51,782 bases of DNA, from positions 1 to 51,782 of the forward strand of contig JAJRXM010000075.1 in the NCBI GenBank assembly GCA_024276275.1, written 5' to 3'. The notes beneath the pieces were generated by a model that saw only the letters and a program-made list of their open reading frames with translations, did not search any database and was not told the origin of the DNA. Shown piece by piece: positions 277 through 17,655 of this stretch (the first letter of the stretch is position 1; each line of letters starts with the position of its first letter). The DNA comes from Candidatus Zixiibacteriota bacterium (lineage in GTDB: Bacteria; Zixibacteria; MSB-5A5; GN15; FEB-12). The position numbers were made by a program, and so were the translations under genes.

Positions 277-810
277 TTACTCAATAATGTTATTCGTTTC
301 ATCATCACCAACCCCATCCAGCTTCTTCGTCAGTATCAAATACAACAAGTACACTATCGAAACAGAAATTGCAGAATCGGCGATATTGAACGTCCACCAT
401 CGGTGAAGTACAAATCCGAACAGATCAATATCAAAAAAATCGACATCAAGAAAATCAACAACCTTGCCAAGTCTGACACGGTCAATCAAATTCCCGATTG
501 CCCCGCCGGCTATAAACGAAAGAGGAATTGACAACATCATCTTTGTACGGTTGGCATAGATATAATAAAGGACAAACAGAAGTATCAGCGATGCCGAGAT
601 AAGATAATACATCGATGAGCCCAAATTAGTTCCCATCGCACCACCCTCGTTGTAGACAAGGGTAAACATAAAGAACTGTCCGATAACTTCAATAGGTCTG
701 CCAAAACTTAATGCATCAACAGCCCATATTTTTGTCAGCTGGTCAAAAAGAACTACAAAGAAAATGATAGCAAGCGGTATAAAAAGGTGTCGTTTGGTAG
801 AGTTATTCAA
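277..810 (-). CDS. lspA: lipoprotein signal peptidase (signal peptidase II)
   Basis: Inner-membrane aspartyl protease that removes the signal peptide of prolipoproteins after diacylglyceryl transfer to the lipobox cysteine. The 177 aa length and four hydrophobic segments are usual. All family motifs are visible: FDQLTK near residue 23, NEGGAMG (54-60, usually NxGxAFG), GGAIGNLIDR with catalytic Asp110, VVDF, and FNIADS with catalytic Asp145. The start lies 4 nt after the dksA/traR stop, so it is the third gene of ileS-dksA-lspA, an order common in Bacteroidota-like genomes. Substrates in this window include the lipoproteins at 4578 and 38295. Confidence 0.96.
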   Translation of the reverse strand: MNNSTKRHLFIPLAIIFFVVLFDQLTKIWAVDALSFGRPIEVIGQFFMFTLVYNEGGAMGTNLGSSMYYLISASLILLFVLYYIYANRTKMMLSIPLSFIAGGAIGNLIDRVRLGKVVDFLDVDFFDIDLFGFVLHRWWTFNIADSAISVSIVYLLYLILTKKLDGVGDDETNNIIE

Positions 811-814
811 ATTA

Positions 815-1213
815 TTATCTCTTGCTTTTTTTAATATTAGGCGGCTTTTTCTTTTCTTCAGCCTCTTTACAGCTTATACAAAACCGTGCGTGCGGAACAA
901 TTTCAAGCCTTGCAACCGGAATATCCTTTTCACACTCAAAGCATTTGCCGTAGGTTCCGTCTTCAATCCGTTTAAGGGCGGCATCAATATGATGCACAAA
1001 CCGTCCGGATTTAGAACCGCGGGCAAAAGCCATCTCACGTTCCATTGCATCAGTACCCTGATCTGCCATATGGTAGGAATGCGATGAAAGGTCGCCGGTT
1101 TTTTCTTTTAAAGTTGCATCAAAACGGGAGGTAATACCTGAAATCTCGTCTGTCATAGTTTCTCGTTTTTGAAGCAAAAGCTGTTTAAATTTTTTTAAAT
1201 CGGTTTTTTTCAT
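815..1213 (-). CDS. DksA/TraR family zinc-finger protein
   Basis: A 132 aa protein of the DksA/TraR C4 family, whose members bind the RNA polymerase secondary channel and adjust transcription, often with ppGpp. The N-terminal part is an alpha-helical coiled coil with an acidic tip (DQGTDAMERE, 51-60), closer to the YteA-like subgroup than to the DxxDxA tip of E. coli DksA. The C-terminal zinc finger uses C91, C94, C112 and C115. A lysine-rich tail ends the protein. It lies between ileS and lspA with gaps of 16 and 4 nt and is surely co-transcribed. Which promoters it controls cannot be read from sequence. Confidence 0.92.
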   Translation of the reverse strand: MKKTDLKKFKQLLLQKRETMTDEISGITSRFDATLKEKTGDLSSHSYHMADQGTDAMEREMAFARGSKSGRFVHHIDAALKRIEDGTYGKCFECEKDIPVARLEIVPHARFCISCKEAEEKKKPPNIKKSKR

Positions 1214-1229
1214 TTTGTACCCCGATTCT

Positions 1230-4200
1230 CTATTTTTTAAGTACTTCTATATTTGCTTTTTGGCCGTTAATGTTCCACTCGGTACCGTTGTCGAGTTTCT
1301 CTTTAAACTCCAATAAGTCTGCTAAAGTTTCACTTTTAATAAAGTCATTATATTCAGATAAAGCATCAACTAATTTTTCCGATGATACCACAAAAATTTC
1401 TATTCGGTCAGTCACTTCAAAACCGTTTGTTTTCCGCATATTCTGAACTTTATTGACAACCTCGCGGGCGAAACCTTCGTTTAATAATTTGTCCGTAAGT
1501 AAAGTCTCAAGAGCAACAGTAAGCTCTCCTTCTGATTCAACAGCATAATTATCAATTTCCGTTTTAATAATATCAATTTCTTCGATTGATAACTCAAATG
1601 ATGTACCGTTTATGTCAAGATTCATTGTCTTGTCAGCGCTAAACTTTTTAACTGTGTCAGAATCAAGAGCTGCTATTTGAGCGGCTCCATCTTTGGCATT
1701 TTTACCGAGTTTTGACCCTGCTGTTTTGAAATTCAGCTTAGCGGAATATGAAACTAAACTGTCTAAATTATCAGCTGCTTCAATCTCTTTTACGTTCAAC
1801 TCATCTTTGATAACGTTTATAAATTTAGAAAGCGAATTAAACGATTGTCCTTGCGGTAAATTGATAATTAGTTTAGCAAGAGGTTGTCTGACTTTTAAAT
1901 TCTTACGCGACCGAGCTGCTCTTCCGAGCGATACGATTTTTTCTGTCAGCCCCATCGCTGTTTCAAGTTCACTATCAATAAGAGTCTCGTCGGTTTTCGG
2001 ATATTCTGACATATGAATAGAAAGAGGAATGTCATGTTTCGTTCTGTTTTCACCCATCAACTCTTTCCAAATCATTTCAGAAACAATCGGGATAACAGGA
2101 GCAGACAATTGACATACACCGGCAAGCATTTGATAAAGCGTTAAATAGGCACGCATCTTGGATGGGTCGTCACCTTTTGCCCAGAACCGACGTCGATTAT
2201 TACGGACATACCAGTTGGAAAGTTCTTCGATAACAAAATGCTGAATAGCGCGAGTCGGTTTTGTGATTTCGTAATTATCAAATGATTCGGTTACTTCTTT
2301 AACAAGTGAGTTATATTTTGAAATTACCCATTTATCGAAAATATCTTTTTCACCCGCTTTGCTTTCTAAAAACGCTTCTACTGATTTGTTTTCATCATCG
2401 GCACGCTGTGGAATATTATCGATATTGGCATAGATAGCAAAAAACGAATATGTATTTTTTAGTGTATCAAAATATTTTCGAATAACTTCTTTAAGACCTT
2501 CTAAATCAAATTTAGTTGGAAGCCAGGGGTTTGATGTTGACACCATATACCAACGAACCGGGTCGGCACCAAAATCATCGACTGTTTTAAACGGGTCGAC
2601 AACATTCCCTTTATGTTTAGACATCTTTTTACCATGTTTGTCTAAGATAAATTCTAAGACTATAACATTTTTAAATGGTATTTCATCAAAAAGGATTGTC
2701 GAAATAGCCAATAGCGAATAGAACCATCCACGGGTTTGGTCGACCGCTTCAGAAATAAAATCAGCCGGATATTTATCTTCAAATTTTTCTTTATTTTCAA
2801 ATGGATAGTGCCATTGAGCAAACGGCATCGCACCCGAATCAAACCAGACATCTACAACTTCGGGAATACGCGACATCGTGCCGCCGCACTCGCAGGTCAG
2901 TTTAATATTATCCATCATCGGTTTGTGCAAATCTACTTCATCGGGAACATCGACTCCCTCTTTGCGAAGCTGTTCTATAGAACCGACAGCACGTTGTTTT
3001 TTGCAAGAATCCTCATCACAAATCCAAATCGGAATAGGCGTACCCCAGAACCGTTCGCGTGAGAGTGCCCAGTCGACATTATTCTCAAGCCAGTTGAGCA
3101 TACGTCCCGAACGGATTTCATCGGGATGCCAGTTGATTTTGTTATTGTTCTCAATCAGTTTATCTTTAAACTGTGTTGTTTTGAGATACCATGATTTTTG
3201 TGCAATGTAAATAAGAGGTGAATCACACCGCCAGCAGAACGGATAGTTATGTTCATACTGTTCTTTTTTGAACATCTTACCGGCGATTTTTAAATTCTTG
3301 ATTATTTCTTTATCGGCATCTTTGATAAACATACCGGCATACGGTTTTACAAAATCTTTAAATGTTCCGTTGTTGTGGATAGCCTGAAAAACGGGAAGAT
3401 TATTTTCTTTACCGATTAAGTAATCATCGGCACCAAACCCGGGAGCAATATGCACAATTCCGGTACCGTCATCGAGAGTTACAAAGTCACCGTTGACGGC
3501 AATGTATGCTTCTTCGGCTTGGTCAGTAAAACAATCAAAGAGTGGTTGATATTTTTGTCCGACAAAATCAGAACCTTTAAATTTTTCTAAAACTTTTACT
3601 TCTTCTTCACCGCCGAAAACTTTATTGATAAGTGCTTCGGCAAGCAGTAGTTTTTCACCCTCATGTTCAACCAGTGCGTAGTCGGCATCGGCTTTGAGAC
3701 AGATAGCGGCGTTCGACGGAAGAGTCCATGGGGTTGTTGTCCAGACAAGATATGAAAAATCGGAATCGGCAGCTTTTATTTTGACATAAATCGAGGGGTC
3801 TGTAATCATCTGATAACCTTGAGCAACCTCATGCGATGAAAGTCCGGTGCCGCATCGGGGGCAATATGGAACAATTTTATGACCCTGATAAATCAGGTCG
3901 CGGTCATAGAAGTTTTTCAGTATCCACCAGACTGATTCAATATAATCGTTGGTCAGCGTAACATAGGCGTCATCTAAATCAAGCCAGTAACCGGTTCGTT
4001 CGGTGATTGTGTTCCAATCTTCAAGATAGGTAAAAACCGATTCACGGCATTTTTTGTTAAATTTATCAATTCCGTATTCTATAATTTCTTTTTTCGATTT
4101 TAACCCGAGCTGTTTTTCCACTTCAATTTCAACCGGTAGACCGTGGGTGTCCCATCCGCCTTTACGGTCGACTCTGAACCCTTGCATAGATTTATAGCGG

Positions 4201-4409
4201 CAGACTAAGTCTTTGACAGTACGGGAGATAACATGATGAATTCCGGGTCGTCCGTTAGCTGTCGGGGGACCTTCAAAAAAGACAAAATGCGGTTTATCAG
4301 CAGAAGCTTTTTGGGTTTCATTAAAGACGCTGTGCGTCTTCCAGAATTTGAGTATATTTTCTTCCTCTTTAGGAAGTGAGTAATTTTCTTTTAATTCGTT
4401 AAATTTCAT
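1230..4409 (-). CDS. ileS: isoleucyl-tRNA synthetase, type 2, with GIHH signature
   Basis: Charges tRNA-Ile with isoleucine. The 1059 aa length and C-terminal domain without an obvious zinc-binding Cys cluster fit the type 2 (eukaryote-like, mupirocin-tolerant) clade. Visible: the catalytic N-terminus PPTANGRPGIHH (48-59), where the usual HIGH tetrapeptide is GIHH (56-59); the CP1 editing domain with WTTTPWTLPSN and GIVHIAPGFGADD; and KMSKH at 595-599. First gene of ileS-dksA-lspA, with a sigma70-type promoter at 4450-4478. No T-box leader is visible. The altered signature lies in an otherwise intact protein, so it is unlikely to be an error. Confidence 0.97.
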   Translation of the reverse strand: MKFNELKENYSLPKEEENILKFWKTHSVFNETQKASADKPHFVFFEGPPTANGRPGIHHVISRTVKDLVCRYKSMQGFRVDRKGGWDTHGLPVEIEVEKQLGLKSKKEIIEYGIDKFNKKCRESVFTYLEDWNTITERTGYWLDLDDAYVTLTNDYIESVWWILKNFYDRDLIYQGHKIVPYCPRCGTGLSSHEVAQGYQMITDPSIYVKIKAADSDFSYLVWTTTPWTLPSNAAICLKADADYALVEHEGEKLLLAEALINKVFGGEEEVKVLEKFKGSDFVGQKYQPLFDCFTDQAEEAYIAVNGDFVTLDDGTGIVHIAPGFGADDYLIGKENNLPVFQAIHNNGTFKDFVKPYAGMFIKDADKEIIKNLKIAGKMFKKEQYEHNYPFCWRCDSPLIYIAQKSWYLKTTQFKDKLIENNNKINWHPDEIRSGRMLNWLENNVDWALSRERFWGTPIPIWICDEDSCKKQRAVGSIEQLRKEGVDVPDEVDLHKPMMDNIKLTCECGGTMSRIPEVVDVWFDSGAMPFAQWHYPFENKEKFEDKYPADFISEAVDQTRGWFYSLLAISTILFDEIPFKNVIVLEFILDKHGKKMSKHKGNVVDPFKTVDDFGADPVRWYMVSTSNPWLPTKFDLEGLKEVIRKYFDTLKNTYSFFAIYANIDNIPQRADDENKSVEAFLESKAGEKDIFDKWVISKYNSLVKEVTESFDNYEITKPTRAIQHFVIEELSNWYVRNNRRRFWAKGDDPSKMRAYLTLYQMLAGVCQLSAPVIPIVSEMIWKELMGENRTKHDIPLSIHMSEYPKTDETLIDSELETAMGLTEKIVSLGRAARSRKNLKVRQPLAKLIINLPQGQSFNSLSKFINVIKDELNVKEIEAADNLDSLVSYSAKLNFKTAGSKLGKNAKDGAAQIAALDSDTVKKFSADKTMNLDINGTSFELSIEEIDIIKTEIDNYAVESEGELTVALETLLTDKLLNEGFAREVVNKVQNMRKTNGFEVTDRIEIFVVSSEKLVDALSEYNDFIKSETLADLLEFKEKLDNGTEWNINGQKANIEVLKK

Positions 4410-9226: not shown

Positions 9227-10078
9227 TTAAGTAGTATCAAGCAGGGAATGGTAGACCGTTGTAGGAATATTGTCACCGTCCAAAGCACGGTGTAAAGCGT
9301 TTTCGTAATTGCGGGCTTTAGTATAAAATATATTTTTGTTCACCTCAGTTGAAAGTGTCGAACTGATAGTGTTAATATGTTCTTTATATACAGACATAAA
9401 CTCGTTACTGGCATCACGACGCACCCGAGGATCCGATGAATCCATAAACTTTGCGAATCGCTGTTTTGTAAGCTGTACGTCGTTACCTTCTTCATCTTTG
9501 ATAGTCGGATATTTTATATCGGCACCGTCTAACATTTCAAATATCTGCTCGGGTCCGTTTGCAAATGTCTGTGTAAGTGACAGCAATTCTTCGATTTCTT
9601 CAGAACGAATATGCTGGCGAGAGCGAATAAGCTCTTTGATATATAAATCGTAAATATCAGTTTGTTTAAACTGATAAGAAAGTTTCAGCAGCTCTTCATC
9701 GGTCATTTTCAACAGTTCAGGTTCTATAAACGATGATGCCGCCCCGATTTCAGCCGAGAGCATCATAGCCCGGTCGGTCATTTCCTGATACTCAGATTGA
9801 CGGCTGTCTAAATCAAGACTCAATTTTGCGTATTGGTATAAACAGGATACTTTTTTAGAAATTTCAGCTCGAAGCTCCAAACAATCAAAAAGCGAATCAG
9901 CGGCCGAAAGTTGTCCGGCAAAAGTAATCAGGATGGCTGCCTGTTCTTTCGCTTGGGTAAAAACAGATTCCCATTCATCGCTGTTTTTGTAAATATCAGT
10001 AAGGTTCCATTTGTCTTTGGTTGCTATATCATCCCGCTGAGGAATTTTATTTTCTTTTTCTTTTGTTTCGGTAGTCAT
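9227..10078 (-). pseudogene. pepF: oligoendopeptidase F, N-terminal part (ends at in-frame TAA)
   Basis: A 283-codon N-terminal half of PepF (M3 family), the helical region before the zinc site. It contains the typical start (IPQRDDIATKDKWNLTDIY) and the conserved YENALHRALDGDNIPTTVY segment that normally continues straight into the catalytic domain. The frame ends at TAA 9227-9229, and the remainder follows in the same frame at 9211-8258. Without the zinc site this product would be inactive. Lesion type: single nonsense codon, not a frameshift, no homopolymer involved. The total length if read through is about 606 aa, normal for the family. Confidence 0.87.
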
Positions 10079-14974: not shown

Positions 14975-16639
14975 CTAAAACAACTCCACCTTTATCTGTG
15001 TAAAAAATGACAACTCCGATGCAACATAATATGTCGACCATCCGTCAATATTTGCTATTTCATTCGGTGTGCGGTATGCATAGTTCTCTGCATAAGCAAC
15101 TGCTGATTCATATTTTTTGGAAAATAGATTATCAATCCGAATCTTTAATGAAAAATCACCTACTGATTCAATTTTTCCCAGTTGAATTTCCCCGGCAACA
15201 GATGATACAAAAACAGGATTTATAGAAAGAGATTTAATATTTTGTAACCCCGAATACTGCCGCCCTATATAATTACCATAATATGTAAACCTAAAATTAT
15301 CGCTCTTATAGTCAGCAATAATATTGGCAAGAATCTCAGGGAACCTACTTACTTTTTTACCTGAAAAATCAACGGCAACGGTTTCGTTTAGAGTTACCGA
15401 GTCGCCAACTGCATTTGTAGTATCAAATGAATAATCAAACAGCTGAGTAAATTCTTTTATACGGTTATAGTTATAGGCGGCATTACCACTTAACTGAAAT
15501 GAGTTGTTCAGTTTTAAGGTTGTTGATAATTCTATCCCTGAGTGAACGACTCTTTCGATATTAAGCGAATTAGTAATACCGTCGGTAACACCCCCCTCAG
15601 CAACTATCATATTTTGAAAATTCATCCAATAGAGATTTGCGTCAACCCCAAACTTTGCGGTACGGTAATTCATACCAAACTCAATATCTGTTACCCGTTC
15701 AGGTTTTACAGTAGGCTTACCAAAACTCAATCGCATAACTCCGTTTACAGATGTTGAGTCAAGCAGTTCTAACTTTGGTAGTAATCCCGGTGTCGGATTG
15801 TCCCCGTCAAAAATTGCTTTATCAGTCGGCGTGCGCGATGCCACCGATGCTGACCCATAAAATTTCAACTGTTCTGACGATGTAAAATACAAACCGATTC
15901 GGGGAGAGACAAACAGATAGTCAATACTGTAATTATACGGAAGGTACGGTCCTATTTGTTCGCGGTCAAAATCATATTGTTGGAACCTTAACTGAACTGT
16001 AGCAAGTGTAGCAAATTTTTCACTCAACTTATAATTTTCTTGAGCATACAAAGAGCCTACATACTTTTTTCCGTAATAGGTATGGTACCTGTGTTGCGGG
16101 TCTAATCGACCGTTAATGTTTTGAGCCCAGACAACTTTACCGTAATGTTCTGAATTAAAATAATAAAAAGAACCTCCAAACGAATGTTTTCCTTTGTCAT
16201 GTTCTATTATTACAGAAGGACTCCAGCCTATTTGATTTTTTTCGACCCACTGTTGTCTAACCAAATCACCGGAATTTTGCGAACTGACCGATGTGTCTAT
16301 ACTATAATCATCATAATTTTGAAAAGGTTTATATTGTTCGTAGAACCCTTTGCCTCGGATAAAATAAAAGGTGTTATTGATTGTTGTCTTATCATTTAGT
16401 TTATATCTATTGATTAACTGGAAATGCGGTTGTGAAAAATTATCGGTCGCATTGGCATAGGTCAGCTCATCATATCCCGGGATTCCAACATTAACACGCC
16501 TGTCTTTGGCAAGTTCACTTCGAGAGGCACCATACCATGCAGCATGATATTTTATAGGACCGCCATATACATGCAGCTCTGTTACCATATTTTTATCTAA
16601 TCGACCGACGGTAAATAATATGATTTTCCGGTATACCAA
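14975..16639 (-). pseudogene. TonB-dependent receptor, beta-barrel part (after frameshift)
   Basis: The C-terminal barrel of the receptor that starts at 17505. It continues the family sequence from FTVGRLDKNMV onward and ends ASELSFFTQIKVELF, with a terminal aromatic as expected for an outer-membrane barrel. Alternating beta strands are visible throughout (for example YFTSSEQLKFYGSASVASR). The break is near 16613-16615: the minus strand reads TATTATTTACC, and one more T restores SYYFTVGRLD. No Shine-Dalgarno sequence precedes the nominal ATG at 16639, so independent translation is unlikely. It would take up thiamin or a thiamin precursor across the outer membrane, judged by the riboswitch. 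Confidence 0.82.
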
Positions 16640-17505
16640 CTGCTATGACGGTACCCGTCTGATTTTTGCTTTGATAGTCTTCCGCCGTAAATCCATCTGC
16701 CGTTTACAATGCCCGATGAGTATTCTATGTTTTGTTTATAAATCGATCCTATAGAATTACCCGATGCAATATATTCACCGTATCCAAATGACATAGAGGT
16801 TTGCTGTGGGGCAGAAAAAAGGTCGGTTACAATATTGATAGTTCCGCCAAACGATGCGTCGCCGTAGAGCGAATTACCTATACCGCGTTGCACCTGTATA
16901 TCGGAAACATTCGAGGCAAAATCAGGCAGATCAACAAAATATGTCATCTGGTCTTCAGGGTCATTTAAGGGAACTCCGTTGATATAGGTCATTACTCGCT
17001 TATCGTCAAATCCACGAATACGTACAGATCCAAACCCGAGCGATGAACCCGCATCAACATACGTATGTAAATTAGGTGTTGTTTTCAGCAGAAGCGGGAA
17101 CTCTCCGACTCCATAGTCACGGTCAATTTCTTGAGCAGAAAAATTTTCAAATGCTATTGGTGTAATTCCAAGTTCGGCACGGTCGGCACGAACTAAAATA
17201 TCACCGGAACGATAATAAATACTTTCAAGTTTTATCTCTTGTGGAATCTCACTAATAGAAAAATTAACTGCCTTAAACCCTATAGACGAAACAGTGATAT
17301 ACTTGATTCCTTCTTTTAAACTGAGATCAAAAGAACCGTCTTGTTTTGATATTGTACCGATTGTAGAGATATTGGTAGCAATAGTAGCACCTACAACAGG
17401 GTTGCCGTCGGAGTCTACAACTTTACCGGAAAAAGCATAAATTTGTGTAGTAGTAAACAATAACAAAACTGTTACAACGGTAATAAGTCGAACATTCATT
17501 CGCAT
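16597..17505 (-). pseudogene. TonB-dependent receptor, signal peptide, CarboxypepD_reg-like domain and plug (before frameshift)
   Basis: The N-terminal part of a TonB-dependent outer-membrane receptor. I place the start at ATG 17505 (MRMNVRLITVV), preceded by GAGG six bases upstream, rather than at the upstream end of the open frame. A signal peptide ends near QIYA; a carboxypeptidase-regulatory-like repeat follows (FSGKVVDSDGNPVVGATI), then the plug domain (VRIRGFDDKRVMTYINGVPLND, GDASFGGTINIV). The frame ends at 16597 through loss of one T, and the barrel follows in another frame. The TPP riboswitch upstream marks it as the thiamin-related receptor type known from Bacteroidota. Confidence 0.85.
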
Positions 17506-17655
17506 GACGTACCTCATTTTCCTGCGGTAATAGCCGCATTTCGTCAACTGATGTGTTGACATTCGGTTGCGTCCTGAAATCGTGGGTGTGCCGTTAATGG
17601 CATGGGGGGATGATACTATCATCTACAATGAATTTTTATCAACGATGAATTCTCA

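Follow-up and report, generated by a model that had tools for sequence, protein, structure and literature searches.

The first histidine of the HxGH signature is important for transition-state stabilization in class I aminoacyl-tRNA synthetases (PMC10485003). An exchange of the first and third residues of this signature, specific to type 2 isoleucyl-tRNA synthetases (IleRS2), was described by Brkic et al. (2023; PMC10485003), who surveyed 379 IleRSs and found G/AxHH in 86 and HxGH in 77 of the 163 IleRS2 sequences, with no altered IleRS1. In the G/AxHH enzymes the third histidine replaces the first. Natural and engineered GxHH and AxHH variants of IleRS2 are active (the Deinococcus radiodurans enzyme, DrIleRS2, has a kcat of 45 per s), and motif swaps shift the Ki for mupirocin by about 200- to 800-fold, or up to about 1000-fold, the G/AxHH form having the higher value, at a mild catalytic cost; a steric clash is the probable cause of the effect on mupirocin (PMC10485003). 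According to the same authors, the altered motif leaves the housekeeping role uncompromised; they infer that it was acquired twice or more and reverted once, in Deinococcus-Thermus (PMC10485003). The association of GxHH with mupirocin hyper-resistance in some IleRS2 enzymes, stated in the first-pass annotation of the DNA analysed here, is a genuine and IleRS2-specific one (PMC10485003).

Enzyme type and domain organization

The window, a stretch of 51,782 nucleotides from a Candidatus Zixiibacteriota draft genome (3.39 Mb, 95.4% complete, 100 contigs), encodes an IleRS near its start (Table 1). The protein scores 978.7 bits with TIGR00392 (curated cut-off 621.4), identifying it as an ileS product, and its domains follow the order PF00133, PF08264 and PF19302/DUF5915. 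Its best PDB match is P. megaterium IleRS2 (PDB code 8c8w; E = 3.4e-291 over residues 10-1056), whereas an IleRS1 structure (PDB code 8c9f; E = 7.3e-107) reaches residue 838 only. The IleRS2 structures far outscore those of IleRS1, and a domain search of the protein detected no PF06827, the zinc finger of IleRS1. On these best matches, the DUF5915 C-terminus and the missing IleRS1 zinc finger, the enzyme is classified from its sequence as an IleRS2. The second signature and the editing domain, described as intact in the first-pass annotation, hold up in the alignment, where KMSK is kept and two editing motifs are present; the fifth position of KMSKS is histidine here and in most relatives.

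Table 1. Features of the window discussed in the text.
Feature	Position	Strand	Basis and remarks
lspA, signal peptidase II	277..810	-	TIGR00077, 79.8 bits (cut-off 73.95); conserved order
DksA/TraR-family zinc-finger protein, downstream of ileS	815..1213	-	DksA-type models below curated cut-offs; adjoins ileS in relatives
ileS, IleRS type 2, 1059 aa, ATG start	1230..4409	-	TIGR00392, PF00133, PF08264, PF19302, 8c8w
C-terminal DUF5915 (PF19302), residues 865-1058	1236..1817	-	E = 1.7e-58; stands where IleRS1 has its zinc finger
KMSKH, second class I signature, residues 595-599	2613..2627	-	Aligned to KMSKS of 8c8w
Editing domain motif GTGIVHIAPGFGADDY, residues 315-330	3420..3467	-	8c8w alignment
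Editing (CP1) domain motif WTTTPWTLPSN, residues 223-233	3711..3743	-	8c8w alignment
GIHH signature, residues 56-59, replacing HxGH	4233..4244	-	Codons GGA ATT CAT CAT (4244 down to 4233), Gly-Ile-His-His; structure alignment and relatives
TPP riboswitch RF00059	17647-17744	-	73.1 bits; only Rfam match in the window; upstream of a TonB-dependent receptor-like gene

The signature site

The Gly-Ile-His-His signature lies exactly where the first-pass annotation had placed it, with codons and strand as given there. The protein context is ...FVFFEGPPTANGRP-GIHH-VISRTVKDL..., with EGPPTANGRP immediately preceding the motif. Full-length alignment to P. megaterium IleRS2 (PDB codes 8c8w, PPTANGLPGVHH, and 8c8v) puts GIHH on the class I HxGH site without gaps nearby, and the relatives agree, so that the claim of a replaced signature stands and is not a product of misalignment. 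With G/A-x-H-H exactly at the HxGH position, the protein belongs to the G/AxHH group of IleRS2.

Could the motif be an artefact of sequencing or assembly? The same draft carries nonsense changes in several essential genes, although the ileS frame is intact despite these apparent errors elsewhere. However, a minimum of four base changes separates HxGH from GxHH, and the motif recurs, in different codons, in independently derived genomes from the genus, the family and the order. GIHH is also encoded in three sister genomes (G001, G002 and G003), with different synonymous codons, so it is no sequencing error; we give this explanation practically no weight.

By analogy with the characterized enzymes, His58, at the third position, would be expected to act in place of the canonical first histidine in stabilizing the activation transition state, and should itself block mupirocin, leading to hyper-resistance, with a Ki expected in the mM range (PMC10485003). 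The importance of the first histidine for the transition state (PMC10485003) could be taken to mean that GIHH abolishes synthesis, leaving a non-catalytic or degenerate paralogue. This is extremely improbable given that other GxHH and AxHH IleRS2 enzymes are active, DrIleRS2 among them, that the ileS frame is open across the phylum and that the gene is the only ileS found in its genome.

Copy number and genomic context

Genome-wide, PF00133 matched this IleRS, ValRS (contig C37, with HLGH), LeuRS (C48), a MetRS-like frame (C37) and CysRS (C51), and the only PF06827 match was a 282-residue MutM/Fpg-like frame; no second ileS was thus found in PF00133 and PF06827 searches of the 95.4%-complete draft. 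An ileS match was present in 92 of the 98 relatives' genomes searched, among them every one of the 60 well-complete genomes; nearly all of those with a match had one full-length or split ileS. The gene order ileS-dksA-lspA is kept in 30 of 30 loci of the window's own family (L009-L038) and recurs in distant Caldithrix and bin522 loci; the dksA label itself is a putative one, assigned by family only. Searches for a T-box or other RNA regulation near ileS gave no Rfam match, and a PADLOC search likewise returned none.

A rival reading is that the gene is instead an accessory, horizontally acquired resistance ileS of the MupA/MupB kind, beside a canonical housekeeping copy that is missing from the draft. 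Such a copy might lie in the missing part of the assembly, and the MupA and MupB models do match the window IleRS (935.4 and 933.9 bits), because MupA and MupB are also IleRS2 enzymes. Both scores are far below the curated cut-off of 1900 bits, at about half its value, and membership of either family was rejected. Moreover, the draft yielded no second IleRS, the gene keeps its synteny with dksA-lspA and shares 89-90% identity with single-copy orthologues of sister species (the nearest named records being Candidatus Zixiibacteriota MAGs), and nearly every one of the 60 well-complete relatives has a single full-length or split match. We therefore regard an acquired resistance gene as very unlikely.

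The window gene is, with high confidence, the sole housekeeping IleRS of a Zixibacteria-type bacterium, an IleRS2 of the known G/AxHH class. The first-pass annotation had considered it the only ileS in view, heading an ileS-dksA-lspA operon, with the altered motif probably serving essential charging; the searches and the conserved gene order bear out both views. Since no second ileS was found and the motif stands at the signature, essential charging by this enzyme is the best reading within the 95.4% completeness of the draft. This lends support to the idea that, where no second enzyme is detected, essential isoleucine charging can be carried out with a swapped class I signature.

Distribution of the motif in the phylum

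A total of 132 genomes of the phylum Candidatus Zixiibacteriota were scanned, of which 112 were readable and 20 were not, partly through incompleteness. The pattern PPTANGxPGxHH was present in 96 genomes and the HxGH form in eight in the first scan; a looser pattern and fetched genes added eight further GxHH cases (with I, A, S, T or V as the second residue, or with a divergent PITANNPM context), giving GxHH in 104/112 and HxGH in 8/112 readable genomes. Every readable ileS of the window's own order is GxHH, and no HxHH or GxGH intermediates occur among the 112. GxHH is the rule in this phylum, where it is inherited and is neither recent nor an acquired resistance gene. As GxHH has been described before and is phylum-wide, GIHH is already explained by the known variant, and the window enzyme is an ordinary housekeeping member that holds little surprise. 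By analogy with the characterized enzymes, most of an environmental phylum would be predicted to be intrinsically mupirocin hyper-resistant.

Two relatives stand apart. One from the same order (L111, genome G074) has a divergent IleRS2 of 36% identity, with the context PITANNPMGVHHAWGR and the motif EMHKS, which we take to resemble the actinobacterial-type minor IleRS2 clade; horizontal replacement is possible. In another, from the same family (L095, genome G018), the IleRS2 still carries GIHH but sits on a long branch and shares just 52-53% identity with the ileS of its own family, a possible gene replacement.

Motif changes on the gene tree

In full-length protein trees, one of them computed with the motif residues masked, the sequences grouped largely by family. 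The phylum's HxGH sequences all fall within one clade of four families (f6, f7, f13 and f18; support 95/97), to which f7 and f18 contribute GxHH members too, so that both forms are mixed within these two families (L056-L063 and L082-L085). With the Bacillota outgroup included in the count, the motif label requires five changes on the tree (four to five over bootstraps), at least three changes being forced by well-supported branches.

Besides column 795, only columns 56 and 58 separate the eight HxGH from the four GxHH sequences of this clade, and column 795 is variable on both sides of the split; no second-site residue cleanly tracks the swap in this comparison. This suggests that the swap may need no fixed second-site partner, with recombination of the N-terminal part as a possible alternative. 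Whether the signature has gone back and forth several times between GxHH and HxGH within the four-family clade, with no other residue tracking cleanly, is in our judgement an even call, and the direction could be either reversion or regain. If it did, motif polarity would be readily reversible in the IleRS2 scaffold and could be a natural record of mupirocin-like selection. The natural switches in the phylum offer closely related enzyme pairs for asking what the swap needs beyond the two residues.

In-frame stops and other features of the window

Several conserved genes of the draft contain in-frame stops. Four have one TAA each, which replaces a residue that in sister species is Glu in PepF (window positions 9227-9229, minus strand) and LeuRS (C48, L118), Glu or Asp in ProRS (C48; L145/L144) and Glu or Gly in ValRS (C37, L116); in PolA (C48; L145/L144) TAG occupies a Ser position. 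All of these stops fit single G:C-to-T:A changes (GAA to TAA, TCG to TAG), and in the substitution spectrum of the window C>A is just slightly over-represented. Other same-frame breaks were recorded across 306 kb. Stop-codon reassignment, with TAA read mostly as Glu and TAG as Ser, was considered and rejected: the involvement of two residues and two stop codons argues against it, and internal stops are absent from most of the window's genes, ileS among them. The stops probably stem from assembly error, polymorphism or DNA damage and not from recoding, and the ileS motif is unaffected.

A TonB-dependent receptor-like gene (14975-17622, minus strand) appears to be split over the overlapping frames 14975-16639 and 16597-17622, likely by a frameshift. 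The position of the TPP riboswitch (Table 1) suggests thiamin-related uptake by this gene.

Comparison with known systems

MupA and MupB are of the IleRS2 type and linked to mupirocin resistance, whereas the window gene belongs to a housekeeping cluster on the chromosome. P. megaterium IleRS2 (PDB codes 8c8u, 8c8v, 8c8w and 8c9d) shares its domain order with the window enzyme and is homologous over the full length; however, its wild type has HVGH and the GVHH of 8c8w is engineered, whereas GIHH occurs naturally here, and P. megaterium also has an IleRS1, in contrast to the window's genome with its single detected ileS. Other close counterparts are the IleRS2 enzymes of S. griseus and D. radiodurans (ALHH in the latter), which have the same first/third exchange, the same third-position histidine and the same housekeeping role; the window enzyme differs from them in its GIHH motif and in belonging to another lineage.
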